This document shows, one piece after another, positions 1 through 17,246 of a DNA stretch of 23,428 bases. The stretch is from a virus. The stretch is taken from the IMG/VR virus record IMGVR_UViG_3300046736_000108, positions 1 through 23,428 of that record; one strand, given 5' to 3'. Position 1 is the first letter of the stretch. Every line of letters begins with the position of its first letter. The notes under the pieces are model-generated. The model searched no databases. It saw only the letters and a program-made list of their open reading frames with translations, and was not told the origin of the DNA. The position numbers were made by a program, and so were the translations under genes.

Positions 1-1
1 G

Positions 2-451
2 GGCCTGTCGGAGGCGACAGTGCGCCAGGCGCTCACCCGCTACCGCGCGGAGAACGGGATCACGGTCCCGAACGCGGCAGGGCTGAACGTGTCTCGCCAG
101 GCCCCGGCCGCTGAGCCGCCCCCGGTGAACGGCCGGGAGCCGACGCCCCTGCCCGCGGCGTTCGAAGCGGTGGCGGATCAGGAGCCGGACGCCGAGACCT
201 TCACCGCCTCCGTCTCCATTGAGCGGGTCGCCGCTGAATCTCCGGCGGAAGCTCTCCAGCGGTTGGGTTCGGCGGCGCAGCGCGTCCCACTCCAGCCGGT
301 CTTCAGCCTCACCCCTGACCTCCGCTCCCTGGCCCTGGACCTGGCGGCCGGCAAAGAATTGGGCGTCGACCTGCAGGAGTTGAGCCTGGCGGACCGGGCC
401 GGGGTCCTCGGCCTGGCGGGACGGCTGGTGGAAGTGGCGAGGGCGGCATGA
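2..451 (+). CDS. Partial HTH-like protein, 5' end outside window
   Basis: The reading frame is open from the first bases of the window, so the gene begins upstream; the GTG at 20 is internal to that open frame and is probably not the true start. The first visible residues, GLSEATVRQALTRYR, look like the turn and recognition helix of a helix-turn-helix. They are followed by a Pro/Ala-rich linker (about residues 30-60) and a helical C-terminal part rich in Leu and Ala. The stop overlaps the next start (ATGA at 448-451), so the two are translationally coupled. A DNA-binding role is inferred only from the short HTH-like stretch. The position ahead of the terminase genes would suit a small regulator or a DNA-packaging accessory. 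Confidence 0.6.
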   Translation, partial: GLSEATVRQALTRYRAENGITVPNAAGLNVSRQAPAAEPPPVNGREPTPLPAAFEAVADQEPDAETFTASVSIERVAAESPAEALQRLGSAAQRVPLQPVFSLTPDLRSLALDLAAGKELGVDLQELSLADRAGVLGLAGRLVEVARAA

Positions 452-648
452 GCAAGCCAGTGGCCGTGGAATACCGCGTGGCCCTGGAGGCCGACCCGGA
501 CGAGTTCGCGTCCCGGTTGAACGCCCTTGCCGCCGAGGGGTGGCGGGTGCTCACCAGCCACATCACCGAGCCGGACGAGGGGACGATCTCCTTCTACGCG
601 CTGATGATTCGCTACACCGGGGACGGGCCCGGGGTTGAGGTTCGCTGA
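448..648 (+). CDS. Small DUF4177-like protein
   Basis: This 66-residue protein has the pattern of small DUF4177-type domains: an N-terminal beta strand (EYRVALEA), a helix ending in LNALAAEGWRVL, and a closing strand (ISFYALMIRY). The AAEGW[RE] turn is the most diagnostic part. No enzymatic function is known for this family, and none is claimed here. The ATG at 448 overlaps the upstream stop, and a GAGGG sequence lies about 5 bases before it. The stop overlaps the next ATG (TGATG at 646-650), placing it in a translationally coupled run of small genes. Family assignment is by pattern only. Confidence 0.7.
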   Translation: MSKPVAVEYRVALEADPDEFASRLNALAAEGWRVLTSHITEPDEGTISFYALMIRYTGDGPGVEVR

Positions 649-986
649 TGCCAGCACCCAGGCCCCGCAACTACTACGGCGGCCGCACTACCAACCCATC
701 CGGCCGGACGCGCCTGCTCGGTGCGGGAGGTGCCCCGGTCGCGGATGCCCACCCGGCTGCACCTGATGAGGCTGGCGCCGCCTCCGACGCCCCGGGGCTA
801 CCGACGGAGCCCCCGCCCCCTGCTCCTGACGCCAAGCCGTGGTTTAAGGACGAGGCCGGGGTGGTGCGCCACAGCGGGTGCGGTGGACCACGCCAGGAGA
901 ACCGGCAACTGCGGCGCTACTACTGCGGCAGCTGCGGCCGGGAAAGAGCATGGGACGCGCAGACCGAGGAATGGAGGTGGGTATGA
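648..986 (+). CDS. Small protein with C-terminal CxxC knuckle
   Basis: This 112-residue protein has a low-complexity Pro/Ala-rich first two thirds and a compact C-terminal part with HSGCGGP, then YYCGSCGRER and a terminal EEWRWV. The CxxC pair plus the upstream Cys and His could bind one zinc ion. The C-terminus matches that of the 41-residue product at 1726-1851 (WWCGTCKRER then VWRWV), so the two share a domain. It overlaps the upstream stop (TGATG) and ends 11 bases before the convergent HNH gene stop. Function is not recognised; a DNA- or protein-binding zinc knuckle is inference. Confidence 0.65.
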   Translation: MPAPRPRNYYGGRTTNPSGRTRLLGAGGAPVADAHPAAPDEAGAASDAPGLPTEPPPPAPDAKPWFKDEAGVVRHSGCGGPRQENRQLRRYYCGSCGRERAWDAQTEEWRWV

Positions 987-997
987 TGCCGGCCCGG

Positions 998-1636
998 CTA
1001 CTCAACATGGGCCCAACTCTCGCGGCTGACGATGCTGTAGATCGTTTTGTTGCTTACCGGGTAGTCCTTCGCCAGATCGCAGACGCGCTCTCCGTCCCGC
1101 ACCCGCTGCCGGATTTCTCGGACCTCTCGCTCGGTAAGCTTGGCGTTGCGCACCTGTTCGCCCCGGGCCTGCTGTTCGGGCTTCAGGCCCAGTCCCCATC
1201 GGTGCCGTCCCTTGCGGATCTTGTCGTCGTTATTGTCGTGGACGGTCCCGATGAACAGATGGCTCGGGCGAACGCACACCGGGTTGTCACAGTGGTGGCA
1301 GACGTAGAGCCCCTCTGGGATGGGGCCGTTCGTCAACTCCCAAGCGGTCCTATGGGCGCCTTGCCGCTTGCCGCGGAAGAGGATGGATCCGTAGCCCCGG
1401 GGGTCGATATAGCCCTGCCACTCCCAGCACCCGTCGCCGCGCCTGGCCAGAGACCAGAAGTGCTCCGGGCTATTGTGGTAGGCGTTCCGACAGGCGACCG
1501 AGCAGAACTGCTGGTTGGCTTTACCAGGGTGCTCGCGGCGCCAGAAAGCGCGGAATTCCGAATTGCAGCCGCGGCAGACTCGGGTGAAACTGACTTGCGT
1601 CGCCGCGAGCTTCTGCGGGGTCGTGGTAGACTTCAT
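998..1636 (-). CDS. HNH endonuclease with zinc finger and C-terminal HTH
   Basis: This 212-residue protein is a free-standing HNH nuclease. An N-terminal Cys4 cluster (C21, C24, C45, C49) resembles the zinc fingers of these enzymes. The HNH core spans about residues 93-143: GAHRTAWELTNGPIPEG, then CHHCDNPVCVRPSHL, then GTVHDNNDD, as in the HNH_3 family. Residues 165-210 form a helix-turn-helix (KLTEREVREIRQ, then VSNKTIYSIV) expected to set DNA specificity. The ATG at 1636 has a strong AGGAGG upstream. It runs against all its neighbours and separates two related CxxC genes, as expected for a mobile homing-type nuclease. Packaging-associated HNH genes usually sit directly beside the terminase on the same strand, so that role is less likely. 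Confidence 0.93.
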   Translation of the reverse strand: MKSTTTPQKLAATQVSFTRVCRGCNSEFRAFWRREHPGKANQQFCSVACRNAYHNSPEHFWSLARRGDGCWEWQGYIDPRGYGSILFRGKRQGAHRTAWELTNGPIPEGLYVCHHCDNPVCVRPSHLFIGTVHDNNDDKIRKGRHRWGLGLKPEQQARGEQVRNAKLTEREVREIRQRVRDGERVCDLAKDYPVSNKTIYSIVSRESWAHVE

Positions 1637-1725
1637 ATGCTTGGGCGCCTCCTGTGCGCCTGGGCATGGCCCCCGTTGACGTTGACGCGTCGGCGGGGGC
1701 TTATTGCTGCCTACAGGTCAACCAA

Positions 1726-1851
1726 ATGAGCACTGATTACCTTCGCGAAATGTGGGAGCGGCGGCTGAACGGGCAGCTGGGGCGGTGGTGGTGTGGGACG
1801 TGCAAAAGAGAGAGAGCGAAGGGAGCGGATGGGGTGTGGAGGTGGGTGTGA
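1726..1851 (+). CDS. 41-residue CxxC protein, paralogue of the C-terminus of 648-986
   Basis: The ATG at 1726 gives MSTDYLREMWERRLNGQLGR followed by a WWCGTCKRER motif and a terminal VWRWV. A longer frame from 1654 would cover the HNH leader and has no family support, so the shorter start is preferred, although only a weak AGG lies upstream. The C-terminal 20 residues align with those of the 112-residue protein at 648-986, including the CxxC, the RER and the WRWV end. Its stop overlaps the next ATG (TGATG at 1849-1853). It may be a complete mini-protein, or the remaining 3' end of a gene whose 5' part was lost when the HNH gene arrived. Confidence 0.5.
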   Translation: MSTDYLREMWERRLNGQLGRWWCGTCKRERAKGADGVWRWV

Positions 1852-2045
1852 TGACCAAGCAGCAGCGTAAGGCGCTCCACCGTCTCTCCGCCACCCTCGG
1901 CACCATGCGCTCTGCCCTGCGCGACGACCTGACCGAGATCCGCGGGCTGCTGCCCCGGGGCGTGGAGGATGACGTGTGGGCGCTGCTGGGGGACCTCGGC
2001 AGGGCGGGGGAGCGGGTTGAGCGGGAGATGGGAGGGGAGACGTGA
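1851..2045 (+). CDS. Small helical protein, unknown function
   Basis: The ATG at 1851 overlaps the upstream stop and gives a 64-residue, charged, mostly helical protein (KQQRKALHRLSATLGTMRSA through to VEREMGGET). An in-frame upstream extension to 1752 reads antisense-like low-complexity sequence across the CxxC gene and is not used. No family is recognised. The end overlaps the next GTG (GTGA at 2042-2045), so it belongs to the same coupled run of small genes. Heptad-like Leu/Val spacing suggests a short coiled coil. Confidence 0.55.
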   Translation: MTKQQRKALHRLSATLGTMRSALRDDLTEIRGLLPRGVEDDVWALLGDLGRAGERVEREMGGET

Positions 2046-2254
2046 CCCCTGACGACCTGGCCGCCATCGAAGCGCACGCCGCCGCCCTGCCGCCGCACCG
2101 GACGCGGGGGTATATGCTCGAGCTGGTCCAGGAGGTGCGCGCCTTGCAGGAGCGGCTGGCGACGGTCGAGAGCGACGCGCGGGAGTGGGAGGCTGAGGCG
2201 TGGCGGGTTCGAGGCGAGCGGGACGCTGCGTTGAAAAACAGACCCCCTTACTAA
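2042..2254 (+). CDS. Small coiled-coil protein
   Basis: This 70-residue protein starts at a GTG overlapping the previous stop. From about residue 25 onward it is a continuous heptad-like helix (LVQEVRALQERLATVE, then WEAEAWRVRGERDAALK), consistent with a coiled-coil dimer. It ends in NRPPY just before the non-coding strip ahead of the small terminase. No family is recognised. Small coiled-coil proteins of this kind are common in phage early and pre-terminase regions, and function cannot be assigned. Confidence 0.6.
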   Translation: MTPDDLAAIEAHAAALPPHRTRGYMLELVQEVRALQERLATVESDAREWEAEAWRVRGERDAALKNRPPY

Positions 2255-2388
2255 GACTCAGTAACAGACCGTTACACCCCATGCATGTAGGGAGAGAGAA
2301 AAGGGGAGGGTGGGGCGCAATAATCTAGGGTTGAGGAGAGGGGTCGTCCGGGAGAGCGGCGGGCGTCATAAACCGGGGTGAGTGAATC
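2255..2388. other. Non-coding strip before small terminase with short repeats
   Basis: No credible gene occupies these 134 bases. An inverted repeat GTAAC-AGACC-GTTAC lies at 2261-2275. The octamer AACAGACC occurs at 2237-2244 and again at 2263-2270. A palindrome CATGCATG lies at 2280-2287. A purine-rich tract (GGGAGAGAGAAAAGGGGAGG) covers 2290-2309. No good sigma70 promoter was found. Position directly upstream of the small terminase makes it a candidate terminase-recognition (cos or pac) or operator region. That role is inference from position and repeats only. Confidence 0.4.
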
Positions 2389-2796
2389 GTGATGAGCGAC
2401 GCAGAGCGGCCGACAAAGGCGACAGGGCCAAAGGGCGATTGGAAGGAACGTTTTCTCCGCAAGCTTGCCGAGCGAGCAAACGTCTCCGAAGCCGCGCGCC
2501 TGGCCGGCATCAACCGCCAGTACGCTTACCACGCCCGGGACCAGGATCCGGAGTTCGCGGCCGGATGGGATGAAGCCGTCGAGGAGGCGGTCGACAAGCT
2601 GGAAGCCGCCGCCTGGGCCCGGGCCAAGAAGCAGAGCGACGCGCTGATGACGCTGCTGCTCAAGGCGCACCGGCCGGAGAAGTATGCGGAGCGGTTGGTG
2701 GTACTCCAGAAGGTCGCCAAGGAAGTGGTCGAAGCCTCCGACGAGGACCTGCTGAAAGCGCTAGGGTATGACGCAACCATCTCTGCTCACGAATGA
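2389..2796 (+). CDS. terS: Putative terminase small subunit
   Basis: This 135-residue protein starts at GTG 2389 or ATG 2392, with a GGGGTGAG sequence 6-9 bases upstream. Residues about 27-55 (VSEAARLAGINRQYAYHARD) form a helix-turn-helix, followed by an acidic helical region and a C-terminal ALMTLLLKAHRPEKYAER motif. That last motif is typical of small HTH packaging proteins encoded immediately before large terminases. The small subunit recognises viral DNA and hands it to the large subunit. It overlaps the large subunit gene by 29 bases. The call rests on HTH, size and position; sequence conservation in this family is weak. Confidence 0.8.
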   Translation: MMSDAERPTKATGPKGDWKERFLRKLAERANVSEAARLAGINRQYAYHARDQDPEFAAGWDEAVEEAVDKLEAAAWARAKKQSDALMTLLLKAHRPEKYAERLVVLQKVAKEVVEASDEDLLKALGYDATISAHE

Positions 2797-4318
2797 GGTC
2801 CTGCGTCCGGCCGTCGAACGGCTGGCGCGGATCGAGCTGGCGCGGCGCGGGGTGGTGGTGCCGGACCTGCCCGCCGTCGGCAACGCGCTGCCCGGCGCCC
2901 AGCAGCCCTGGCAGGATTGGCTCGCCCACCACTTCCCGCACGTCTGCTCCTCCCCCATGGGCCAGCGGCACCTGCGGCTGTGGGAGTGGTTCGAGAAGCT
3001 GGCGCCCGGCACCAAACCCCGGGCCCGGGTAGAAATCTGGCCCCGCGGCGGCGCGAAGTCCAGCACCGCGGAGCTGGCTGTGGTGCGCCTGGGCGTGAAG
3101 CTTACCCGGCGCTTCGTCCTCTACGTGAGCCGCACCCAGGAGATGGCGGACGGCCACGTCGGCACCATCGCCTCCCAGTTCGAGACCCTGGGCGTGGGGA
3201 GGGCGGTCAACACCTACGGCCACTCCAAGGGCTGGCGCCGCTCCCAGTTGCGGACCGAGAACGGCTTCAACGTCGCGGGCTTCGGCCTGGACGCCGGCGC
3301 GCGGGGCGTGAAGCTGGACCAGTTCCGGCCGGACCTTCTACTCCTGGACGACGTGGACGACCGCCACGATACCGAGGCGACCACGAACAAGAAGATCCGC
3401 ACCATCACCGACACGCTGCTGCCGGCGGGCTCCGCGGACTGCGCGGTCCTGTTCATCCAGAACCGGATCCACCACGCCTCGATCGCCGCCCAGCTCGTGG
3501 ACGGCCGCGCGGACTTTCTCCACTCCAGGGAACCGACCTGCGAGGAGCCGGCCCTGGTTGGCCTGAAGGTGGAGCAGGAACCGCGGGCGGGAGGCGGCGT
3601 GCGGTTCATCGTGCGCGCCGGAACCCCCACCTGGGAGGGGCAGAACGTGGCGACCTGCGAGGCCCAGATCAACGAGTGGGGGCTTTCCGCGTTCCTCCGT
3701 GAAGCGCAACACGAGACGGACGAGGAAGAGGGCGGGCTGTGGTCGCGGGAACTGCTGGATGCCTGCCGCGCGATGGACGTGCCGAACCTGACGCGGATTG
3801 GCGTCGGCGTGGACCCGAACGTGAGCGAGGGCGGCGACGAGGCGGGGATCGTGGTGGTCGGCACGGCGATGGTCGGCGGCCAGATGCGCGGCTACGTGCT
3901 TGAGGACGCCACCGTCGAAGGCGGCCCGAAGCAATGGGCGGAGGCGGCGGTTGCGGCTTACCGGAAGCATGGGGCGGATGTGCTGGTAGCGGAGAGGAAC
4001 AACGGCGGCGAGATGGTGGCTCTGACGATTGGCACGGTGAGAGGGGCGCCGCCGGTGGAACTGGTGCACGCGAGCCGCGGCAAGATCACGCGGGCGGAGC
4101 CGGTGCAGAAGCTCTACGCCGACGGGCGCATGTTCCACGTCGGGCACTTCGGGCTGCTGGAGCGCGAGCTCTGCACGTACCGCCCGGGGATGCCTTCCCC
4201 TAACCGGATGGACGCGCTGGTGTGGATTGCCACGCGCCTGCTGCTGCCCACTGACGAGAACCCGATCCGCGGCCTGATCGCGCAGGCGGCCGGAACCGGC
4301 TGGAGGCCGAAGCGATGA
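2768..4318 (+). CDS. terL: Terminase large subunit (ATPase-nuclease)
   Basis: This 516-residue packaging motor has an ATPase and a nuclease half. Walker A is WPRGGAKSS (residues 91-99) and Walker B is DLLLLDDVDD (189-198). The RNase H-like nuclease half shows three expected acidic positions: Asp349 in GVGVDPN, Glu409 in VAERNNGG, and Asp482 in SPNRMDALVW. It cuts concatemeric genomes and pumps DNA through the portal. The chosen ATG at 2768 overlaps the small-subunit gene. The 3' end overlaps the portal start (ATGA at 4315-4318). Length and motif order are normal for the family. Confidence 0.95.
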   Translation: MTQPSLLTNEVLRPAVERLARIELARRGVVVPDLPAVGNALPGAQQPWQDWLAHHFPHVCSSPMGQRHLRLWEWFEKLAPGTKPRARVEIWPRGGAKSSTAELAVVRLGVKLTRRFVLYVSRTQEMADGHVGTIASQFETLGVGRAVNTYGHSKGWRRSQLRTENGFNVAGFGLDAGARGVKLDQFRPDLLLLDDVDDRHDTEATTNKKIRTITDTLLPAGSADCAVLFIQNRIHHASIAAQLVDGRADFLHSREPTCEEPALVGLKVEQEPRAGGGVRFIVRAGTPTWEGQNVATCEAQINEWGLSAFLREAQHETDEEEGGLWSRELLDACRAMDVPNLTRIGVGVDPNVSEGGDEAGIVVVGTAMVGGQMRGYVLEDATVEGGPKQWAEAAVAAYRKHGADVLVAERNNGGEMVALTIGTVRGAPPVELVHASRGKITRAEPVQKLYADGRMFHVGHFGLLERELCTYRPGMPSPNRMDALVWIATRLLLPTDENPIRGLIAQAAGTGWRPKR

Positions 4319-5919
4319 AATGGCCCCTACAGTTGAGGAAGCCCGAACCGGAGAAGCCCTCGCCGGCAATGCAGCGCGCGGTGATGTCGGCCCTGGCCAG
4401 CAAGCGCGCCCGTAAGACTTCCGACACGCCCTCGACGCTCTTTGGCGCCGGGATGTCCATCCTCGCGCCGCCGGATGCCGAGAGCGATTGGCGCGGGCTT
4501 GAGCTGGACGGGGAGACGCTGAGCAGGGAGACGCCGACGCGGCTCCTGGAGTTGCTGGTCAACGTCTCGCCGGACATCTCCCGTGCCCTGTGGGATTTCC
4601 TGCGGTTCTGTAACCCAGGCTTCGAAGCAGACGCGCTGGCCCCCGGCCCTGCGGAGAGCATCGACACGCGCGCCCAGGCGGCGCTAGATGGCTTCCTCGC
4701 CTCCCTGAAGGCGCGGCACGGCTCGCTGGATATTGTCATCAACCGCCTGTTCATCGCGGCGTTCATGCGGGGCGCCTTCCTCGGGGAACTGGTGCTGGAT
4801 CAGTCCGGCCGTCTCCCCCTGGACATTGCCACGCCGGATCCGAAGTGGGTCCAGTTCGAGCACCGCAAGGACCCGACGCTGGGCGAGGTGTACGTGCCCT
4901 TCTACTGGAGGGGCGGCAAGCGGGAGTATCTCGACGTGGAGACGGTGCGCTACTTGCCCGTGGACCCGGTGCCAGGTTCGCCGTTCGGGCGCTCGCTGGC
5001 CGCGCCTGCCCTCTTTACCGCGATCTTCGCGCTCGGCCTGATGCACGACCTGCGGCGCGTCGTGAGCCAGCAGGGCTACCCACGGCTCGATGTCTCGATC
5101 CTCTCCGACGTGCTCCAGAAGATCATCCCCGGCGAAGCGCTCGCGGATCCGGTGGAACTGAAGCGGTGGGTGGACGCGGCGATCGCGGACGTCCAGACCG
5201 CTTATGATGCCCTCCAGCCGGATGACGCGTACATCCACCTCGATACGGTGCAGGTGAACCGGCCGGTGGGGACCGTGGACTCCTCCAGCCTGGGGGCGGT
5301 GGATGGGCTGTTGCGCGCATTGGAGCGCCAGGTGGTCCGGGCGCTGAAGACGAACCCGCTCCTCTTCGGGTTGGATCAGACCACGAACGAGGCGCAGGCA
5401 AACCGCCAATGGGAGACGCACGTTGCGGGGATCAAGGCGATCCAGCACCTCGGGGAGAGCCTGCTTGAGCACCTGCTGACCATCGCGCTGCGCGTCCAGG
5501 GCTACCAGTCCACCGTCCGGTTCCGGTTCGCCGAGCTGCGCGCTTCGGAGCTGCTCCGTGACGCCCAGGTGACGGCGATGAACCTGAAGAACGCGCGGGC
5601 CGCTTACGACAACGGCCTCGTGGACCAGGACGGGCAAGCGAAGATGGCGCTGGGCCTGGACAAGGCGGACCAGCCGGCGCCCCGGGTGGTCCAGGCCGCA
5701 GATCCGGCCGGTGGCGCCGACCCGATGGACGACAACCCGGACCCGGGGAGTATGCGCGCTTGCATCCAGTATGTGCGCGGCGTGGAACCGAGTGGAACCG
5801 ACCTCGGCGCGGTGCCCAGCGAGGTGACGGTTTCCGATGCGGAGGTCGACAGCGCCGAGGCTGCCTTTGACCTCGCGCTGCCGAACTACGCGGGGCTGCT
5901 GTCGGCGGAGGTGGTCTAG
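4315..5919 (+). CDS. Portal protein
   Basis: This 534-residue protein lies directly after the large terminase, the standard place for the portal. Its sequence fits DUF935-type portals: a helical N-terminal wing, a GELVLDQSGRLPLDIATPDP region (about residues 162-181), LPVDPVPGSPFGRSLAAPA (about 216-234), and a C-terminal stem with LLFGLDQTTNEAQANRQWE. Twelve copies would form the ring through which DNA enters and leaves the head and on which the tail assembles. Translation is coupled to terL through ATGA. The last 100 residues are variable and acidic. Confidence 0.88.
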   Translation: MKWPLQLRKPEPEKPSPAMQRAVMSALASKRARKTSDTPSTLFGAGMSILAPPDAESDWRGLELDGETLSRETPTRLLELLVNVSPDISRALWDFLRFCNPGFEADALAPGPAESIDTRAQAALDGFLASLKARHGSLDIVINRLFIAAFMRGAFLGELVLDQSGRLPLDIATPDPKWVQFEHRKDPTLGEVYVPFYWRGGKREYLDVETVRYLPVDPVPGSPFGRSLAAPALFTAIFALGLMHDLRRVVSQQGYPRLDVSILSDVLQKIIPGEALADPVELKRWVDAAIADVQTAYDALQPDDAYIHLDTVQVNRPVGTVDSSSLGAVDGLLRALERQVVRALKTNPLLFGLDQTTNEAQANRQWETHVAGIKAIQHLGESLLEHLLTIALRVQGYQSTVRFRFAELRASELLRDAQVTAMNLKNARAAYDNGLVDQDGQAKMALGLDKADQPAPRVVQAADPAGGADPMDDNPDPGSMRACIQYVRGVEPSGTDLGAVPSEVTVSDAEVDSAEAAFDLALPNYAGLLSAEVV

Positions 5920-5920
5920 C

Positions 5921-6604
5921 ATGGCCTGGGTCTACGAAAAGGCGAGCAATCGCTACAAGTCGACCGACACCGGCCGCTACCTCTCGCAAGAGGCCGCCAA
6001 GGGGCTGCGGGACCGGTGGGCCGTGGCCCAGCGCGAGAAGGCCACGGGGCTGGCGTCTCGGCTGGCGTCGGGCGACCTGACGCTGAAGGGCTGGGAGCAG
6101 CAGGCGCGCGCCCTCACCAAAGAAACCCACCTCGCCCAGGCGCTCCTCGGCCGCGGCGGCCGCAACATGATGACCGCCGCCGACTGGGGCCGCGTCGGCA
6201 ACACCCTGCGCGCGCAGTACGGCTTCCTGCGCGAGTTCGCCAACGAGATCGCGGGCGGCACGCTGACCGAGGCGCAGATCGCCGGCCGTCTCGGGATGTA
6301 CACGGACGCCTCCCGCCAGTCCTACGAGAAGGCACGCGCCGCGTCCTGGGGGATCACGCTGCCGGCGCATCCGGGAGATGGCAACACGCGCTGCCTCACA
6401 CGGTGCGCCTGCTGGTGGGACCTGCAAAAAGGACCGGACGGCGTGACGGCGACGTGGCGGCTGGGGGCGTCGGACCACTGCGAGGACTGCCTGGAGAACG
6501 CGGCGCAGTGGTCGCCCTACTCCGGCGGGGCGCGTGTGCGGATCGCCGGCCTGTCCCTGCCGCCGCTGGGGTGGGTGATGTCGGGGAACGGAGCGCACGG
6601 ATGA
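5921..6604 (+). CDS. MuF-like minor head protein with Cys cluster
   Basis: The ATG at 5921, one base after the portal stop and preceded by GGAGG at 5906-5910, gives 227 residues. The N-terminus has a YKSTDTGRYLS segment, a motif often seen at the start of phage minor head proteins. A helical region (40-140) follows, then a C-terminal Cys cluster: C158, C162, C164 and the pair C187-x2-C190 in DHCEDCLENA. This resembles the Cys-rich end of MuF/gp7-type head morphogenesis proteins and could bind zinc. Position between portal and protease supports the call. The MuF assignment is by context and pattern and is not certain. Confidence 0.7.
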   Translation: MAWVYEKASNRYKSTDTGRYLSQEAAKGLRDRWAVAQREKATGLASRLASGDLTLKGWEQQARALTKETHLAQALLGRGGRNMMTAADWGRVGNTLRAQYGFLREFANEIAGGTLTEAQIAGRLGMYTDASRQSYEKARAASWGITLPAHPGDGNTRCLTRCACWWDLQKGPDGVTATWRLGASDHCEDCLENAAQWSPYSGGARVRIAGLSLPPLGWVMSGNGAHG

Positions 6605-6807
6605 GCGAGCGGCGGGGCGAACCAGGCCGGGTCACCCAGGACCCTGACGGCTTCCTGCGCGTTCACGCCCGCGGCTCGGATCGCGTCGTCTTCCGCTACC
6701 ACCCTGATGGAGTGGTGGAAACCAAGCGCCCGGGGCAAAATCCGGAGCGAGTTGACCTCCGCTCCCTAGATGGGTATAATGGCAACGGGGCGCGTGAGCG
6801 TTCCTAG
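6601..6807 (+). CDS. Small hypothetical protein in head operon
   Basis: The ATG at 6601 overlaps the stop of the minor head gene (ATGA) and gives 68 charged residues, with a beta-like centre (GFLRVHARGSDRVVFRYHPD). No family is recognised. Its last third overlaps a near-consensus promoter at 6752-6780, so this DNA carries both coding and regulatory information. It is the last gene before the intrinsic terminator at 6846-6890 and therefore ends the terminase-portal transcription unit. Confidence 0.6.
   Translation: MSERRGEPGRVTQDPDGFLRVHARGSDRVVFRYHPDGVVETKRPGQNPERVDLRSLDGYNGNGARERS
6752..6780 (+). promoter_or_regulatory. Near-consensus sigma70-type promoter
   Basis: The -35 box TTGACC (6752-6757) and the -10 box TATAAT (6775-6780) are separated by exactly 17 bases, the optimal spacing. 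The predicted start is a G near 6787. In DNA this GC-rich, a perfect TATAAT at that distance from a five-of-six -35 box is unlikely by chance. It lies inside the end of the 68-residue gene and points at the structured region and terminator that follow. It is the only such promoter I found on the + strand. Confidence 0.75.
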
Positions 6808-6890
6808 AGCAATCATTCCAACCGAATAACACGCAGAGCGCCCTTGAGCGCCTTGGCCCACGGTAACCCGTGGCGTCGAGGCGCTTTTTT
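6787..6890 (+). ncRNA. Candidate ~104-nt small RNA or attenuator leader
   Basis: A transcript from the promoter at 6752-6780 would start near 6787 and end at the T-run at 6885-6890. Its 5' GGGCGC (6788-6793) can pair with GCGCCC (6838-6843), extended by GTG (6794-6796) with CAC (6830-6832). It can pair alternatively with the terminator's left arm GCGCC (6848-6852), because GAGCGCC is tandemly repeated at 6836-6842 and 6846-6852. Mutually exclusive pairings of this kind are the hallmark of attenuators. The middle (6800-6830) is AT-richer and probably single-stranded. Whether the product is a free sRNA or a leader for the capsid genes cannot be settled from sequence. Confidence 0.55.
6846..6890 (+). 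terminator. Strong intrinsic terminator
   Basis: The outer stem AGCGCCT (6847-6853) pairs perfectly with AGGCGCT (6879-6885). The inner stem CCACGG (6858-6863) pairs with CCGTGG (6868-6873) around a TAAC loop. Six T residues follow at 6885-6890. The orientation terminates + strand transcription only, since there is no T-run on the other side. It sits between the portal/minor-head genes and the capsid module, 5 bases before the next start codon. Confidence 0.88.
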
Positions 6891-6895
6891 GCATT

Positions 6896-7075
6896 ATGGC
6901 CGAGCAAGCGACAACCGAACAGGTCTGCACCTGCCATCGCCACGCGGAGCCGAGGGAGCACGATCCTGCGTGCCCGGTGTTCGTGAAGTGGCTGGAGGCG
7001 GGAGCAGAGCGGGCGTTCGTGCGGGACGTGCGGGTGCGACACGCCCATGACGACCGGAGGCGGCACGGTGGCTGA
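6896..7075 (+). CDS. 59-residue Cys/His protein (small overlooked gene)
   Basis: An ATG at 6896, five bases after the terminator T-run, opens a 59-codon frame that stops at 7075, overlapping the protease start. The product has VCTCHRHAEPREHDPACP, a C-x-C-H-x-H followed by H and C, then a FVKWLEAGAERAF helix and a basic His/Arg tail. The Cys/His spacing suggests one zinc site. No good Shine-Dalgarno sits at ideal distance: the GAGG at 6878-6881 is 14 bases away, inside the terminator hairpin. Translation may therefore depend on that hairpin being open. Function is unknown. Confidence 0.5.
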   Translation: MAEQATTEQVCTCHRHAEPREHDPACPVFVKWLEAGAERAFVRDVRVRHAHDDRRRHGG

Positions 7076-8345
7076 CGAGCGCGAAGCCCTCCAATACTCC
7101 CGCGTCATGGCGGTCCGCGCCGCGCCGCAGGCCTCCAGCGACGAGCTGCTGGCGGCTGCGCGCCGGAACGCGCCGGACCCGGAAGTGTTCAGCGAGTTCG
7201 CCCCGGTCTTTTTCCACGGCGAGATTTCCTCCACGCGCTGGGATGCCTGGGACACGTCCATGCACCCCAGCAGCCTGAAGAACTACGCCACCGACGCTGA
7301 GTCCGGCGTCGCTTTCCTCCGCAACCACGACACCGGCCGCGACCCGGAAGGGCACTCCATCGGGGGGCGCTTCATCGCCGGCGGCGGCAACGGCGTGGCG
7401 CGGGTGGAGTCGGACTTCTACCTCATCCCCGTCCCGGAGAGCCGGGACTACATCGCCAAGCTGCGCGCCGGCATTGTCCGCGACCTCTCCATCGGCTTCT
7501 ACGGCGGAACGTGGCGCTGCACGCTCTGCCAGCGCGACATGGCGCAGTGGTTCGGCCCCGAGGGCTGCCCGCACATCCTCGGGATGACCTACACGCCGAT
7601 GGACGAGGCGGGGACCAGGAAGGGCGAGGCGCAGAAGGCGCGGGCGGTGATTGAAGACGCCCGCCTGGCGGAGTTCAGCGGCGTGTACGACGGCGCCACG
7701 CCGGGCGCGATGATCAGCAAGGCGCGGAGCATGGCCGCCGATGGGGCGCTGTGCGGCCAGGAGCGGGACCTGGTCCAGGTCCGCTACCGGCTGGAGCTGC
7801 CCGAGAAGCGCGTGATGGTTCAGGGCGCCGACCTGCGCCCGTTGGCTGGCGCGAACGGCGCCGAGGAGAACAGGATGCCTGACGAGACGACCAACGGGAC
7901 GCCGGCCACAGAGAACCGTGCCGCGCCGGACCCGAACACGTTTGAAGCGCGCTTCCGGGCGCTCGATACGCGGCTCCGGCAGGTGTCCGGCTTGCCGCAG
8001 GACGCGAGCGACCCGCTGGAGTGGCTGATTTCCGACCGGACTCGGCTGGCAGGCGAGGTGGAGACGCTCTCGCCACTGGCGGAGGACGGCCGCGCCTACC
8101 GCACCGCCACCCTGGACGAAGCCCTGGCGGCGGGGGTGCGGGCGCTGGGCGACAAGTTCAACCGCGAGGCGCAGCAGAAGGCGTTGGGCAGCCTGCCGCT
8201 CGATACCGTCCGCGAGATGCGGGACGTGTGGAACGCGACGGGCGATGCGATCTTCGCGGGCGGGCGGCGGACACAGGACGGGCCGGGCGAACGGGCACCG
8301 GCGGAACGCAGTTCCGAACTGCCGGCGGCGGCACATCGGGCGTAG
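7068..8345 (+). CDS. Prohead maturation protease with fused scaffold domain
   Basis: I choose GTG 7068, which has GGAGG seven bases upstream, over ATG 7047, giving 425 residues. The N-terminal half fits the HK97-type (S78) prohead protease pattern: a putative catalytic His87 in FLRNHD, then EGHSIGGRF, then Ser141 in GIVRDLSIGF. A Cys-x2-Cys ... Cys-x-His insert (C151, C154, C167, H169) follows the Ser strand and looks zinc-binding. From about residue 270 the protein is acidic and helical (LDTRLRQVSGLP, then LAGEVETLSPLAEDG), as expected for a scaffold domain. The protease removes scaffold from the procapsid. Position before the decoration and capsid genes supports the call. Confidence 0.82.
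   Translation: MADEREALQYSRVMAVRAAPQASSDELLAAARRNAPDPEVFSEFAPVFFHGEISSTRWDAWDTSMHPSSLKNYATDAESGVAFLRNHDTGRDPEGHSIGGRFIAGGGNGVARVESDFYLIPVPESRDYIAKLRAGIVRDLSIGFYGGTWRCTLCQRDMAQWFGPEGCPHILGMTYTPMDEAGTRKGEAQKARAVIEDARLAEFSGVYDGATPGAMISKARSMAADGALCGQERDLVQVRYRLELPEKRVMVQGADLRPLAGANGAEENRMPDETTNGTPATENRAAPDPNTFEARFRALDTRLRQVSGLPQDASDPLEWLISDRTRLAGEVETLSPLAEDGRAYRTATLDEALAAGVRALGDKFNREAQQKALGSLPLDTVREMRDVWNATGDAIFAGGRRTQDGPGERAPAERSSELPAAAHRA
7875..8345 (+). CDS. Probable nested scaffold protein (in-frame internal start)
   Basis: Within the protease frame, ATG 7875 is preceded by a perfect GAGGAG (7863-7868) at a 6-base spacing. Initiation here would give a 156-residue protein identical to the C-terminal part of the protease fusion. 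It starts MPDETTNGTP and continues into a helical, acidic region. Lambda makes its scaffold Nu3 in the same way, from inside the protease gene C. The function is inferred from that precedent, the good ribosome-binding site and the lack of any other scaffold gene before the capsid gene. Confidence 0.6.
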   Translation: MPDETTNGTPATENRAAPDPNTFEARFRALDTRLRQVSGLPQDASDPLEWLISDRTRLAGEVETLSPLAEDGRAYRTATLDEALAAGVRALGDKFNREAQQKALGSLPLDTVREMRDVWNATGDAIFAGGRRTQDGPGERAPAERSSELPAAAHRA

Positions 8346-8375
8346 AGGGCGATCCCCTCACAAGGAGACACACAG

Positions 8376-8804
8376 ATGGCAAATCCGCGCAACACAGTGG
8401 ATTTCGAGGGGATCGCGGGGCAAGAGGACTACGCGACCTTCATCATCGATAACAGCGCGATCACCTACGATGCGGACGAGGAAGGCGGCTCGGCCCAGGT
8501 CGGCCTGGCGGTCACCCTCTCGGCCGACAAGACGATCTCCACCGTCGCGGACGGGGAGTGCGTGCTCGGCAAGCTGATCAAGGTCGAAAAGGACCTGAAG
8601 GCGACCGTGCAGGTGCGCGGTTTCATGACGCTCCCGGGCGGCACTGGGGCCTCCCTGACCCGCGGGAAGGCGATTGTGGGCGACCTGCTGAGCGCCGCCG
8701 AGGGCTACGTGCGGGAAGTCGCGACCGCCACCGCCGCGGAACTCGGGGTGATGCGCGGGACGATCCTCGATGACGACGCGACGAACCCCTGGATCCTGCT
8801 GTAG
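8376..8804 (+). CDS. Probable head decoration / capsid cement protein
   Basis: This 142-residue, beta-rich protein is preceded by AAGGAG (8362-8367), eight bases from the ATG. It lies immediately before the major capsid gene, where decoration or cement proteins are usually encoded. The sequence has the alternating small/hydrophobic pattern of such proteins, with VRGFMTLPGGTGASLTRGKA and VGDLLSAAEGYVREV near the middle and end. These resemble 'capsid cement' proteins that clamp shell trimers. The call is from position, size and pattern. Confidence 0.7.
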   Translation: MANPRNTVDFEGIAGQEDYATFIIDNSAITYDADEEGGSAQVGLAVTLSADKTISTVADGECVLGKLIKVEKDLKATVQVRGFMTLPGGTGASLTRGKAIVGDLLSAAEGYVREVATATAAELGVMRGTILDDDATNPWILL

Positions 8805-8824
8805 GGACGGGAGGAGAGAACACC

Positions 8825-10039
8825 ATGAGCAACACAGCGACCGCACCGGCGGGGGATCGGCAGCGGCTCTCCCCCCGTGACATGTTCGAGCGGATGAGCC
8901 TCGGCGTCTACGCCGAGGCAGCGCAGCGGGGGATGAGCCTCACCGCCTTCCTGGCTCGCGAGATGACCGAGGCCGACAAGCGCGAAGGGCTGGACGGCTA
9001 CGAGCGGCTGCTGGCCGTCTCCGGCATCGTCACCCGCACCCACCCGACGGGCTCCTACCAGGCGTCGGAGATGTCGGAGTGGGAGAAGGCGCCACAGAAG
9101 CGCGCCCTGTTCCCGGAGTGGGTGCGCCGCACGGCGGAGCGGGCACGCCACCACGCGCGCGCGGTCTACCTGTCCAGCGATGCGGCCGGCGGCAGCGTGC
9201 TGAACCCCTACGACGACCTGCAGGAGCCGCGGGTCGATGACCGCACGGAACCCGCGATCCCCCTCGAGGAGACGATTGCCGGGACGCGCTTCGTCGGCTC
9301 CGACCGGGCGCGCTCCCTCTACCTGACGCGCTCCGCGACCGACACGCGCAAGAAGCGGGTCGCGGAAGCGGCCGACATCCCGCGCTCGAAGATCCTCACG
9401 GGTCAGCACGACATCCCGCTCTACAAGTACGGGATCGCGCTCGAGGCCTCCTACGAGAGTATGCGGCGGGTGCGGATCGATCAGTTCGCGCGCTTCCTCC
9501 AGATGGAAGCGATCCAGGCGGTGATCGACAAGGTGGCCACCGTCATCGACGTGATGGTGAACGGCGATGGGAACAGCGGGACCGCCGCCACTTCCTACAA
9601 CCTGACCACGCTGGACAGTGCGGCGGTGGCCGGCACGCTGACCCTCAAGGGCTGGCTGTCGTTCAAGGCCAAGTTCCAGAACCCCTACATGCTGACGCAC
9701 GCGCTGGCGCCGGAGGCGATGGTGCTCCAGCTGCTCCTGCTGAACATCGGCAGCGCGAACTGGCCGCTGAACCAGCGCCCGGACCTGGGCGGCTTCACGC
9801 CGATCAACCAGACGTTCGCGGACGGCGTGCGGTGGGGCATCACCTCGGACGCGCCTACCGGCAAGATCATCGGCTACGACCGCCGCTTCGCCATCGGGCG
9901 GGTGGTGGAGACGGGCTCCGAGATCATGGAAATGGACCGCTGGATTACCCGGCAGGTCGAGGTTCTGACGGCGACCGAGACGGAAGGCTACGAGACCATC
10001 GACGCCAACGCCGTCAAGATCCTCGTCGTGACCTCGTAG
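8825..10039 (+). CDS. Major capsid protein
   Basis: This 404-residue protein has a strong GGGAGGAG site before its ATG. It follows the protease, scaffold and decoration genes in the standard head-gene order. The N-terminal 130 residues are charged and helical, compatible with a delta or scaffold-like segment. The body includes long helices (FARFLQMEAIQAVIDKVAT) and ends in beta strands (GYETIDANAVKILVVTS), as in HK97-fold capsid proteins. No close family signature was recognised by eye, so the call rests mainly on context and size. Confidence 0.85.
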   Translation: MSNTATAPAGDRQRLSPRDMFERMSLGVYAEAAQRGMSLTAFLAREMTEADKREGLDGYERLLAVSGIVTRTHPTGSYQASEMSEWEKAPQKRALFPEWVRRTAERARHHARAVYLSSDAAGGSVLNPYDDLQEPRVDDRTEPAIPLEETIAGTRFVGSDRARSLYLTRSATDTRKKRVAEAADIPRSKILTGQHDIPLYKYGIALEASYESMRRVRIDQFARFLQMEAIQAVIDKVATVIDVMVNGDGNSGTAATSYNLTTLDSAAVAGTLTLKGWLSFKAKFQNPYMLTHALAPEAMVLQLLLLNIGSANWPLNQRPDLGGFTPINQTFADGVRWGITSDAPTGKIIGYDRRFAIGRVVETGSEIMEMDRWITRQVEVLTATETEGYETIDANAVKILVVTS

Positions 10040-10051
10040 CGGAGGCGTAAG

Positions 10052-10990
10052 ATGCCAGATACGAACTTCGATAACGTCCGTGTCGCCGGGGGCCTGGTGG
10101 TGGCTCCCGGCGCCTCCTTCATCGACCTGTCCGGCAACGGGACCACGTACTACGTGGATCCCGATGCCGGCAGTTCATCCTACAACGGCCTGTCCTGGGC
10201 CACGGCGAAGGCCACGATGGCGCAGGCGTTCGCGCTCCTGAACTCGGGCGATACCGTCTACTTCCGCGGCAAGATCCGCGAGCAGATCACGACGCCGGTG
10301 CAGGTGTTCGACGTCACGATCATCGGCGCCGGCAACCGGCCGCGCCACGCGGATGCGGAGCCGGCCCCGACGGGCGGGCACGGGACGAACACCTGGACGA
10401 CCCCGGTCTCCGCCGCGGCAACGACGCCGCTCTGTAAGGTCCTCCAGCAGGGCTGGCGGTTCGTGAACATCCTGTTCGCGGGGCCCACGGATGCCGCGTG
10501 CGTCCTGCTGTTCCGTGACGGTGGGGCGGCGAACGCGGAGCGGGACGCCTCGCACGCGCACTTCTACGGCTGCCGGTTCGCGTCGGGGCAGACGCACATC
10601 GAGCAGTCGGGCGGGTGCTACAACGTGCGGATCGAGAACTGCTCCTTCGCCTCCGCGACCGGGCAGGCGCTCAAGTCGACGGCCGGCGCGGGCATCGCCA
10701 TCGTGCAGGAGTGGGAGATCCTCAACAACCGCTTCTACCAGAACGCGAACAACGCCGTGTTCGCTATGCAGCGGTTCCGGTGGATCGGCAACACGTTCAC
10801 GAGTACCACCACCGGCGTCCTCAATACGGACGGCGGGGACGCCTCGGCCGGCCACAACATCATCCTCAACAACGCCTTCGACATCGCCGCCGCGGACTTC
10901 GACCCGGCCGGCGGCGTCACCGGCGATGCGACGGACCTCTGGTCCAACTACCTGAAGGATGCCATCGAGACCGGCCTGCCGGCCAACTAG
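10052..10990 (+). CDS. Right-handed beta-helix protein, likely virion surface
   Basis: This 312-residue protein starts 12 bases after the capsid gene, with GGAGG six bases before the ATG. The opening TTYYVDPDAGSSSYNGLSWA, followed by GDTVYFRG, is the standard entry into pectin-lyase-like beta-helices. Repeating strand-turn units follow (NVRIENCSFASATG, EWEILNNRFYQN, RFRWIGNTFTST), ending near residue 280. Such folds bind or cut polysaccharides in tailspikes. No catalytic residues could be identified. Encoded in the capsid module and not with tail-fibre genes, it may decorate the head. Confidence 0.75.
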   Translation: MPDTNFDNVRVAGGLVVAPGASFIDLSGNGTTYYVDPDAGSSSYNGLSWATAKATMAQAFALLNSGDTVYFRGKIREQITTPVQVFDVTIIGAGNRPRHADAEPAPTGGHGTNTWTTPVSAAATTPLCKVLQQGWRFVNILFAGPTDAACVLLFRDGGAANAERDASHAHFYGCRFASGQTHIEQSGGCYNVRIENCSFASATGQALKSTAGAGIAIVQEWEILNNRFYQNANNAVFAMQRFRWIGNTFTSTTTGVLNTDGGDASAGHNIILNNAFDIAAADFDPAGGVTGDATDLWSNYLKDAIETGLPAN

Positions 10991-11004
10991 GGAGACATTC
11001 GGAG

Positions 11005-11256
11005 ATGCGACGTAACGACGAGGAACCCGAAACGGCGAAGCCGGCCGCCAAGAAGGCGGAACCGGCCGAGCACATGCGCGTCAAGTCCGGCCTCAAGGTG
11101 GCACCGGACGGCGGGATGCCGGTAGCGTTCTGGGAGGTCGATGAAGACCACCCGGAAGGCGAGGTGTTCGTCTCCGGGCCGGGCGAGTTCACGGTAGCGC
11201 GGACGCCGGGCGTGCTGGGCGCGATCGCGGCGAAGCGGCTCGTGGAAGTGAAGTAG
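11005..11256 (+). CDS. Small head-module protein, unknown function
   Basis: The ATG at 11005 gives 83 residues; AGGGAG (10989-10994) lies upstream. The first 25 residues are a charged Lys/Ala/Glu linker. The rest is a compact beta-like domain (MPVAFWEVDEDHPEGEVFVS, then VARTPGVLGAIAAKRLVEV). Small proteins with a similar end are common between capsid and connector genes in siphovirus-like phages. No defined function can be given. A longer upstream frame overlapping the beta-helix gene is a shadow. Confidence 0.6.
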   Translation: MRRNDEEPETAKPAAKKAEPAEHMRVKSGLKVAPDGGMPVAFWEVDEDHPEGEVFVSGPGEFTVARTPGVLGAIAAKRLVEVK

Positions 11257-11265
11257 GCGCGCAGC

Positions 11266-11712
11266 GTGGGCGACATCCTGGAAAACGCGGCGGAGTACGA
11301 CCTGGCGCGCAAGGCCCTGGATGTCGCCCTCACTGACGCCGACCTGCCCGACGCCACGATCATCCTCTCCACGTTCCTCGGGGCCGCGGAGCGGGAGATC
11401 AAGCAGCGGGATCCGCTCTGGGCCGGACGGACCGGGGCGGAAGAGATCCGGCTGAAGGCGGCGACCGCCTACATGACGGCCGCGTTCCTCGCCGGGTCCT
11501 GGCGACCCCTTCAGGAACTCTCGGAGAGCCAGGGCGACGTCCATTCGCAGACGGTGACGCACCGGAAGAAGTACGCGGCGTGGGATGCTGCCGCACTGGC
11601 GGCTGCCCTGCGTGCGCTGGCGGAGGCGGAGCTGGCGGGCTACCTGGAGACGAGCGGGGAGACGGACATTCCGACCATGTTCGCCCTGGCGACCGGGCGG
11701 AGGGGGCGCTGA
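11266..11712 (+). CDS. Putative head-tail connector protein
   Basis: This 148-residue, largely helical protein starts at GTG 11266 with a weak upstream GTAGG. Helix patterns (AAEREIKQRDPLWAG, KAATAYMTAAFLAGSW) and size resemble the all-helical adaptor proteins (HK97 gp6/SPP1 gp15 class) that sit under the portal. The location after capsid genes fits. The match is by fold pattern and position, so the assignment is tentative. Confidence 0.55.
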   Translation: MGDILENAAEYDLARKALDVALTDADLPDATIILSTFLGAAEREIKQRDPLWAGRTGAEEIRLKAATAYMTAAFLAGSWRPLQELSESQGDVHSQTVTHRKKYAAWDAAALAAALRALAEAELAGYLETSGETDIPTMFALATGRRGR

Positions 11713-11715
11713 TCT

Positions 11716-12015
11716 ATGGCACTTGAATACGCTCCCGGCGGCAGGGGAGAGGCGCGGTGGTCCGGCGGGCTCGCCGCTACTGGGTCCGATCCGGCGCGCA
11801 AACTGGTTGCCGTCACCAAAAGCGACGTGACCACCTACGACCCGCCCCTGCGTGCCCTCTGGGTAGGCGGGGCGGGCAACGTGGCGGTCATCGCGGCCGA
11901 TGACGCGGATGCGGTGACGATTACCGAGGTGGCGGCGGGGACGCTGCTGCCGATTGCGTGCTCGAAGGTGATGAGCACAAACACCACGGCGACTTTGATT
12001 ATTGGGCTCCGATAG
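11716..12015 (+). CDS. Small conserved-type phage structural protein
   Basis: This 99-residue protein has an S/D-rich centre followed by LRALWVGGAGNVAVIAADDA, then GTLLPIACSKVMSTNTTATL. This 'glycine-rich strand, then GTLLPI, then TTATLI' arrangement is common in about 100-residue proteins encoded among phage and gene-transfer-agent head and neck genes, where their role is usually unassigned. It starts four bases after the previous stop and ends 4 bases before a convergent minus-strand gene. Confidence 0.65.
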   Translation: MALEYAPGGRGEARWSGGLAATGSDPARKLVAVTKSDVTTYDPPLRALWVGGAGNVAVIAADDADAVTITEVAAGTLLPIACSKVMSTNTTATLIIGLR

Positions 12016-12019
12016 TGGC

Positions 12020-12208
12020 CTACTCTTCAGGCGGCTTCCGGAAGCAGCAGATGATGGACACGGCCATGAACGTCACGAACGGCGCCAGCACAATCGCCCC
12101 CACCACCGGATACCGCTCCCACGCCGCGGCCAAGAGCGATCCGAGGACGAGCGACAGGGCGACCAGGGCGGCGCCGAGCCAGATGACGACGCGCGGCAGG
12201 AGTGGCAT
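12020..12208 (-). CDS. Two-helix membrane protein on opposite strand
   Basis: This 62-residue protein has two clear membrane segments, about residues 7-29 (VVIWLGAALVALSLVLGSLL and onward) and 34-55 (VVGAIVLAPFVTFMAVSIIC). A WERYP turn joins them and an RKPPEE tail follows. An AGGG lies 5 bases before the ATG. It fills the only gap between + strand genes here, which supports it being real. A two-helix hairpin could be a class II holin or another small membrane effector. No lysin gene is adjacent, so holin is only one possibility. Confidence 0.65.
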   Translation of the reverse strand: MPLLPRVVIWLGAALVALSLVLGSLLAAAWERYPVVGAIVLAPFVTFMAVSIICCFRKPPEE

Positions 12209-12246
12209 ACCGGCCCTGTTCGCCTCGCGTGCGGGGGCGCCCTGCT

Positions 12247-12969
12247 GTGGCTAGCCTGGGAATAGGCATCGGCTTGACGCGCGGCCGGGCGGCGGGAGAA
12301 GCGGCCCCGCCGACGCTTCAGGCGGGCTGTAAGGCGTTCTGGACGTTCGAGACGACCGGATGGGCGGATGCCACCGGCAACGGCCATACGGGCACGGGCG
12401 TCAACACGCCAACCGTGGCAGCGGGCCAGATCGGCAACGGCGTTAACCTCGTGGCGGCCAGTTCGCAGCGCCTCACCGTCCCGGCACATGCCGACTTCGG
12501 CGGTGGCGCGGAGTACTCGTTCACCGTTTCCGCGTGGGCGAAGCCTGCCACTGTCGGCACGATGGGCGTCTTCGGGGAGGATGCGGACGGAGGCAATCCG
12601 CGCGTCTTTGCCCTGTTCGGGGCCGGTGTGGCCGGCTGGCGGTGGCGGGTCCACGGAACGGACTTGACGACCTCCGCCCTGATCACGGCCGGGGCCATGA
12701 CGACCAACACCTGGCAGCACCTGATCGTCAACCATGATGCCGTCGCGAACACGATCAACATGTGGATCAACAATGTCGCGCAAACGCCATCGGCCCACAC
12801 GCTCGGCGTTTACGACGCCAACCTGGCGGTCTGGATCGGTTCGATTAACACGCTCTTCCCCTTCAACGGGATGCTGGATGCAATCGGGTATTGGGACCGC
12901 CTGCTGACGAGCGACGAGCGGGCGCAACTGGCGGCAGGAACGGCGGCAAGCGAATGGCCCTTCACGTAA
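12247..12969 (+). CDS. LamG-like (concanavalin-fold) domain protein, copy 1
   Basis: The GTG at 12247 is chosen because the sequence around it matches the start of the next gene: GGCGCCCTGCTGTGGCTAGC recurs at 12977 with one mismatch. The product is 240 residues. After VASLGIGIGLTRGRA comes a LamG/LamGL-type jelly roll: FWTFETTGWADATGNGHTG, then GNGVNLVAASSQRLTV, WQHLIVNHD, and a closing FNGMLDAIGYWDRLLTSDE. Such domains bind glycans or act as adhesion modules. It is paralogous to the downstream gene. A virion-surface role is inferred. Confidence 0.8.
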   Translation: MASLGIGIGLTRGRAAGEAAPPTLQAGCKAFWTFETTGWADATGNGHTGTGVNTPTVAAGQIGNGVNLVAASSQRLTVPAHADFGGGAEYSFTVSAWAKPATVGTMGVFGEDADGGNPRVFALFGAGVAGWRWRVHGTDLTTSALITAGAMTTNTWQHLIVNHDAVANTINMWINNVAQTPSAHTLGVYDANLAVWIGSINTLFPFNGMLDAIGYWDRLLTSDERAQLAAGTAASEWPFT

Positions 12970-12987
12970 AGGCTGAGGCGCCCTGCC

Positions 12988-13746
12988 GTGGCTAGCGCAG
13001 GCGTAGAGATTGGGCTGTCACGCAACCGCGTGGAGGTCGGCACGGGCGCCGCCTCCAGCCTGCTGACGGGCCTCATGGGCTTCTGGAAGCTGGACGAGGC
13101 GACGTTGACGCGGGTGGACAGCAGTGGCAACGGGAACGACTTCACGCCCTTCAACACGCCGGGCAACCAGAGCGGCAAGATCGGGAACGCGCTCGCCCTC
13201 GTGGCGGCCTCCAGCCAATACCTGCGGCAGGACTTCAACTCCGATTTCAACATCGGCGCGAACGGCTCATTCACCTTCGCCTGCTGGTTTAACCCCGCCT
13301 CCCTCGCGGCCCTTCTAACCCTCTTTTCCATCTGCGCCGATACCACCGCCGCCAACTCCGACCTGCCGGTATTGATTGACGTTCTGACAACCGGCCGGGC
13401 GCGGTTCACCACCGTCAAGGCCGACACCTCGGTGGCGCAGGTCAGTTCCGAACTCGGCGGGGTGACGGCGGGCGCGTGGCACTTCCTGGTTTGTCGCCTC
13501 GATGCGGCCGCGGACCTGATGAAGGTTCAGGTCAACAGCGAAGTGCCCACCACCACCGCTAAAACGGGCGACGTTAACACGGTGGCCGGGCAGCGCCTTT
13601 ACCTCGGGATCCGCCGGACCAATACCGGCACTACATCCAGTCCGTTCGGCGGCGCAATCGACGCCTGCGGCTGGTGGAACCGCTCCCTCCTCGATGGCGA
13701 AGTCGCGAACCTCTACAACGGCGGCGACGGGTGGGAGCCTGACTGA
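12988..13746 (+). CDS. LamG-like domain protein, copy 2
   Basis: This 252-residue protein starts at GTG 12988 with VASAGVEIGLSRNRVEVGTG, closely matching the N-terminus of the preceding gene. The LamG-like body shows FWKLDEATLTRVDSSGNGND, then GNALALVAASSQYLRQDF, WHFLVCRLDAA, and a closing FGGAIDACGWWNRSLLDGE. The two genes are tandem duplicates that have diverged. Its stop overlaps the next ATG (TGATG at 13744-13748), coupling it to the hydrolase gene. Confidence 0.8.
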   Translation: MASAGVEIGLSRNRVEVGTGAASSLLTGLMGFWKLDEATLTRVDSSGNGNDFTPFNTPGNQSGKIGNALALVAASSQYLRQDFNSDFNIGANGSFTFACWFNPASLAALLTLFSICADTTAANSDLPVLIDVLTTGRARFTTVKADTSVAQVSSELGGVTAGAWHFLVCRLDAAADLMKVQVNSEVPTTTAKTGDVNTVAGQRLYLGIRRTNTGTTSSPFGGAIDACGWWNRSLLDGEVANLYNGGDGWEPD

Positions 13747-15532: not shown

Positions 15533-15534
15533 CG

Positions 15535-15954: not shown

Positions 15955-15955
15955 C

Positions 15956-17236: not shown

Positions 17237-17246
17237 GAGAAGAACA

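Follow-up and report, generated by a model that had tools for sequence, protein, structure and literature searches.

What does a promoter-plus-terminator unit do inside the head operon of a phage, between its portal and protease genes? The locus that raises this question lies in a virus record of 23.4 kb with 69% GC, hereafter the window, by which we mean the whole stretch of DNA analyzed. Its genes are ordered as terminase, portal, a phrog_24776 protein, the unit, a protease/scaffold-type gene, a head protein and the major head protein, with the tape measure gene found later.

A predicted promoter, leader and terminator in the head operon

The unit is flanked by structural genes, which, like the signals of the unit itself, lie on the plus strand. 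Upstream are the portal gene (4315–5919, phrog_3753) and the phrog_24776 gene (5837–6604), which stands between portal and unit and in some relatives forms a fusion with the portal. A 68-codon open reading frame (ORF; 6601–6807) follows, for which no homologue was found in related loci. Downstream, a 59-codon ORF (6896–7075) begins 6 nt past the T run of the terminator, and its stop codon runs into the probable GTG start of a head maturation protease/scaffold-type gene (7068–8345), whose protease role is suggested by its position and a weak PHROG match. The longest ORF of this gene runs from 7047; an SD-like GGAGG and the stop/start overlap indicate that translation probably starts at the GTG at 7068 rather than the ATG at 7047. 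This is the first large gene that the unit would control, and relatives have a gene of the same family at the syntenic position. A head structural protein (8376–8804, phrog_4588) and the major head protein (8825–10039, phrog_3922, PF25209) come next. Between capsid and tail genes, the window also carries genes for a laminin-G-like lectin (12202–12969) and a GDSL/CE2-like esterase (13746–15128). A tRNA search found none.

The initial annotation had placed a promoter in the end of one gene, and our scan recovered it: TTGACC (6752–6757) and TATAAT (6775–6780), separated by 17 nt and matching a sigma70-like consensus at 11 of 12 positions, lie within the last third of the 68-codon ORF. It was the sole promoter-like site with at least 9/12 matches in the scan of bases 1–20000, and the sole site with at least 10/12 in the whole window. 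Across 400 first-order Markov simulations of the window, sites with 11/12 matches appeared on neither strand, and 0.1 sites with 10/12 were expected per strand.

A transcript starting ~7 nt past the −10 hexamer would yield a predicted leader RNA of ~104 nt (6787–6890) that stops at the end of the T run. Its 3′ end, also as proposed, is a predicted intrinsic terminator hairpin (6846–6886, 3′ arm GGCGC at 6880–6884, −30 kcal/mol) followed by a T6 run (6885–6890); no other T6 or A6 run occurs in the window. Per strand, 0.05 terminators of such strength were expected, and two were counted, the second near 7209 inside the protease ORF. The two tandem GAGCGCC boxes are exactly where they had been reported, box 1 at 6836–6842 and box 2 at 6846–6852, 10 nt from box 1 and forming the 5′ arm of the terminator stem. 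Just upstream of them is a match to AA[CT]NGAATA (AACCGAATA, 6820–6828). We found no ORF of 60 codons or more between the stop at 6807 and the terminator, in keeping with the claim that no protein gene lies there; an 11-codon ORF (GTG...TAA, 6794–6829) ends 6 nt before box 1.

The leader folds strongly. At −49.8 kcal/mol, the fold of 6787–6892 lies well below the average of shuffled sequences (−34.2; z = −5.0), and it includes a 5′ domain, with ~60 nt of leader lying 5′ of the hairpin. The whole window gave no match to the Rfam 15 covariance models at gathering score, and a permissive Rfam search of the window's unit and of the leaders of two relatives (L060 and L133) returned sub-threshold matches only.

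The initial annotation had further suggested that the 5′ end of the transcript could pair with either box and thereby switch the terminator on or off. The free energies of the two pairings are not comparable: GGGGCGC pairs with box 2 at −33.9 kcal/mol and with box 1 at −49.8, a gap of 16 kcal/mol. Since the pairing with box 1 is far more stable, box 1 would take the 5′ end when no factor is bound, and the terminator would form. Nor is the 5′ partner conserved, as an upstream GGCGC occurs in 4 of the 35 dereplicated units described below, versus 3.7 expected. We therefore rejected a two-state, box-swapping attenuator on both energy and conservation. Box 1 can also substitute for box 2 as the 5′ arm of the stem, at a cost of ~7 kcal/mol in most units; the two forms both keep the T run and would both terminate.

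Recurrence among relatives with homologous head genes

DNA similarity searches of the unit region against 50,697 phage records and single-protein searches with the capsid and the protease gave no match, and alignments were needed to reach relatives. Portal protein alignments retrieved 77 viral and 6 genome loci, and capsid alignments 80 viral loci; the portals of these relatives are 37–57% identical to that of the window. Kouleothrix and Ardenticatenia contigs among them hint at Chloroflexota, and most records are metagenome fragments with hosts not known.

Promoter–terminator pairs were concentrated at the position of the unit. In 49 non-redundant loci, we counted 0.26 pairs per kb upstream of the protease homology versus 0.013 per kb elsewhere on the same strand, and zero on the opposite strand. 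A further 27 loci gave 0.34 per kb upstream of the protease, versus 0.007 elsewhere on the strand and 0.003 on the other strand. Over these 76 non-redundant relatives, the enrichment just upstream of the head-protease gene was ~20- to 50-fold. The unit was present in 13 of the 76 loci, including two just beyond the 700-nt test window (L024 and L051) and one weak case (L039); the other 63 had no scored pair. In L056, L060, L034, L090 and L041, the protease gene begins, with its ribosome-binding site and start codon, within tens of nucleotides past the terminator.

Several loci showed features of their own. L010 (1661-5017) and L057 (7980-11342) encode a portal–phrog_24776 fusion with an in-frame insert of ~1 kb within the second domain. 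In L007 (~8581-8787) and L011 (~8546-8749), a gene that by eye is of the LuxR/GerE helix-turn-helix type directly precedes the protease-upstream terminator; these two phages have no consensus promoter. A near-perfect 17-bp hairpin, CCAAACGGCTTGGCACCGTTGGCGGTGCCAAGCCGTTTG (−33.5 kcal/mol), is found on the minus strand of L018 near 3269.

Conservation was clearest in a clade of four loci (L060, L133, L041 and L056) with portals 64–74% identical. Its members keep the promoter, a CCCGGT box, the SD and the terminator, whose stem carries a compensatory G-C to A-T change, and vary in the leader body. Between promoter and terminator, L060 (5617-5725) and L133 (5000-5095) could also form a three-way-junction RNA of ~85 nt with compensatory changes and the sequence elements CCTGGCRGGTGAAAGTC..CCAT..GTGTAGAC..GAGTCTCTAGCCYGCCAGG. 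This RNA matched no Rfam family, and its exact core pattern was found in no IMG/VR contig beyond these two. Being absent from L056 and restricted to two contigs, it was dropped as a candidate core of the element.

These comparisons bear on whether the predicted ~104-nt transcript is itself the product, a small regulatory RNA acting in trans, with its place before the head genes being secondary. Such an RNA would be expected to have its own promoter and terminator and a stable fold with a 5′ domain, as the window's predicted transcript does. We found no conserved leader body, however: from one relative to the next the leaders change in both length and sequence, and the boxes and terminator alone persist. 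The fixed place of the unit a few nucleotides before the ribosome-binding site of a head gene argues, moreover, for action in cis, and we regard a free small RNA as quite improbable. The initial annotation had offered a free RNA or an attenuator. What stands of this is a real, non-coding element placed to control the protease-to-capsid genes; no sign of a trans-acting RNA was seen.

The tandem box in unrelated phages

The window shares with L051 and L149 an AACYRAATA sequence followed by tandem GAGCGCC boxes 9–10 nt apart. We searched for the pattern GAGCGCC-N1-4-GAGCGCC-N15-45-GGCGCTTTT, for which exact-match counts are lower bounds. At least 48 IMG/VR contigs matched the tandem box plus terminator, versus 1 when the first box was permuted, and the box sequence was unchanged over contigs of 35–69% GC. 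Because the terminator was part of the search pattern, it cannot count as independent evidence in this set. Such evidence comes from the permuted-box control, from the genes that lie downstream and from the independent relatives. The simulations, the enrichment of pairs upstream of the protease and the permuted-box control together reject a chance origin of the unit. The same architecture, kept by relatives and by unrelated phages, favors an attenuator or leader over chance.

Dereplication left 35 units. In their inner stems, 119 of 140 positions are paired, with 31 different sequences. The AA[CT]NGAATA motif lies just upstream of the boxes in 8 units (0.12 expected), and a promoter of at least 10/12 lies within 200 nt in 11 (0.7 expected). 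In the remaining two thirds, no strong sigma70 promoter was recognized close upstream, so the terminator there may be acting on nothing more than read-through out of the preceding gene. An SD and start codon follow at a median of ~21 nt past the T run. Like the inner stems, the motif and the promoters, they were not in the search pattern.

The genes that follow the boxes are uniform in function. Of 28 scanned, 19 could be assigned a function, and all 19 are head or packaging genes: the portal (L196, L200, L202, L209, L210 and L240), the large terminase (L204, L214 and L222) or small terminase (L216) subunit, the head protease (L207, L211, L218, L227, L230 and L232), the scaffold (L213 and L217) and the major head protein (L226). 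The window itself and L206 are further cases with a downstream protease. We found no non-structural gene common to most tandem-box contigs. In an isolate, Eggerthella phage EL753P1, whose terminase is 36% similar, no array occurs in the stretch read.

Bacterial genomes, by comparison, hardly ever carry the tandem box plus terminator (0/6, 1/400, 0/398 and 0/149 in successive sets; 1/947 across three phyla). The sole match, L243 in the Chloroflexota genome G410, is a chromosomal site that is not in a recognizable phage and lies between fabF-like and rplS-like genes, upstream of rplS. On this sample of three phyla, an origin of the element as a host terminator is unlikely.

The frequent order of hairpin, U run, SD and ATG among tandem-box units calls to mind the T7 gene 10 leader and other strong leaders of phages, in which a stabilizing hairpin precedes the ribosome-binding site. 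The structure might accordingly be a 5′-UTR stem-loop with a U-rich stretch that terminates nothing. Whole records offer some cases that such a stem-loop fits as well as a terminator does: G001 has four promoter–terminator–gene units on the structural strand and G008 two, and in one of each (G001 4964 and G008 6526) the hairpin begins nearly at the transcript start. The T run starts right at the end of the stem, as it does in terminators, and the window has ~60 nt of leader before the hairpin. In G002, G003 and G007, the unit's promoter is the one site on the structural strand to reach 11/12, and the early-strand promoters of the same phages are followed by no terminator, nor is the stem-loop found at early promoters. 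Overall, a mere 5′-UTR stem-loop seems very unlikely.

The boxes themselves could instead be operators, that is, DNA sites at which a phage repressor blocks late-gene elongation in lysogens, with the terminator as a second safeguard. This would resemble the stoperators of Cluster A-type actinophages, 13–14 bp sites present ~25 times per genome (PMC13313380), which are likewise short directional repeats in intergenic regions. Arrays hold 2–4 direct repeats, 8–11 bp apart in one orientation, mostly that of the following gene; some phages have several, placed ahead of more than one late operon, for instance of terminase and of scaffold-like genes in G823, G828 and the gut phage MT836094, and integrase-like genes are present in five tandem-box contigs. 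Unlike stoperators, the boxes are 7-nt tandem units linked to a terminator, and a record has one to a few arrays. For operators, the repressors of unrelated phages would need to keep one box sequence, sites per genome are few, and box variants preserve the RNA pairing of box 2. We consider this reading improbable.

That pairing is evident where the box and the 3′ arm have changed jointly: two GAGAGCC copies accompany GGCTC in L285 (14721; MT835477.1, a gut phage of 35% GC), and GAGTGCC accompanies GGCAT in G818. Together with a box 1 that can serve as an alternative, ~7 kcal/mol weaker 5′ arm in most units, such changes also fit a constitutive partial terminator, in which the tandem boxes would amount to a spare copy of the 5′ arm that safeguards termination. 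A fixed fraction of transcripts would then be lost to set head-protein ratios, the promoter would compensate, and no regulated antitermination would be involved; the terminator lies immediately 5′ of the gene, with no obvious room for a second promoter. Against it, a capsid operon normally wants higher, not lower, expression, and mere hairpin redundancy would not need a fixed box over 35–69% GC. Some arrays also lack a matching terminator arm, namely a tandem GAGCGCC before a probable major tail protein gene (L248:18461, in G818) and, on the G823 minus strand near 38600, an array of four copies. We hold a constitutive terminator to be unlikely.

A candidate switch for assembly genes

Based on these comparisons of sequence, the unit is almost certainly a real, recurrent and conserved phage regulatory element. 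For its mode of action, we give roughly even odds to a late-gene leader in which antitermination lifts the block set by a promoter-proximal terminator, similar to the lambda pR′-tR′ region. A strong promoter of the host sigma70 type inside the preceding gene would start RNA at ~6787; by default, polymerase would stop at ~6890 and release a short RNA. When head proteins are needed, a factor, whether phage-encoded, host-encoded or a modified polymerase, would allow read-through, and the protease, scaffold and capsid would be expressed. Most units leave no obvious room for a promoter between terminator and gene, so polymerase has to cross the terminator to transcribe the head genes. The tandem boxes would be the likely recognition site that recruits the factor, since one sequence is kept across GC extremes and before head and packaging genes. 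Arrays ahead of several late operons in some phages fit this reading as well. The sequences show the promoter and terminator signals, the conservation of their pairing and position, the box motif and its linkage to head genes; from these we infer transcription of the unit, regulated relief of its termination and recruitment of a factor by the boxes.

In lambda, pR′-tR′ combines a strong host promoter, a short leader and an intrinsic terminator before the late genes, the expression of which requires read-through. The window likewise has a strong predicted sigma70 promoter and a promoter-proximal intrinsic terminator before late genes. Unlike in lambda, its unit stands between the portal and protease genes, and in other phages ahead of other head genes; positions 6781–6805 (GGCAACGGGGCGCGTGAGCGTTCCT) hold, by inspection, no −10-like pause hexamer after the start; and the tandem boxes are found ~50 nt past the predicted start, not at the promoter. 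The likeness falls short of placing the unit in the pR′-tR′ family. Q antiterminators act by a described read-through mechanism and fall into mutually unrelated families (PMC7171158). Neither the Q families PF06530 and PF03589 nor NusG (PF02357) had a match in 12 related records, mostly fragments. With no relative of these Q families or of NusG found there and no shared non-structural gene, a host factor or an intrinsic effect of the RNA is as possible as a phage protein.

A possible parallel to an intrinsic RNA effect is offered by the put elements of phage HK022, reported to antiterminate in cis as RNA (PMC9378689). An RNA element may similarly lie between promoter and terminator here, but the leaders are short and divergent, unlike put. 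Like bacterial leader attenuators and riboswitch expression platforms, the unit has its terminator right ahead of an operon's first gene; unlike them, it has no Rfam match (window, L060 and L133 leaders) and no conserved alternative pairing that we could find.

The initial annotation had called such an element between portal and protease genes not standard. It is indeed undescribed in the papers searched, in which we found neither the box nor the layout, most subscription journals being outside their coverage, and the element is apparently new to the literature. It is nonetheless recurrent in this phage group, and its tandem-box form is widespread in metagenomic phages. The same stop signal and doubled box before the head or packaging genes of dozens of unrelated phages look like an undescribed assembly-gene switch. 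That the tandem GAGCGCC and terminator form a common late-gene antitermination site, read by one conserved factor across phages with unrelated head genes, is a tentative proposal that we rate at somewhat under even odds.

The timing of assembly genes is largely uncharted in phages beyond the lambda and T-phage models. If our reading is correct, dozens of environmental and gut phages with no relation to one another would share one short element that marks the head-gene switch. It could be found by a simple pattern, and it would indicate an antitermination or blocking factor to be sought biochemically. Late operons would then become predictable in metagenomic phages without a cultured host.
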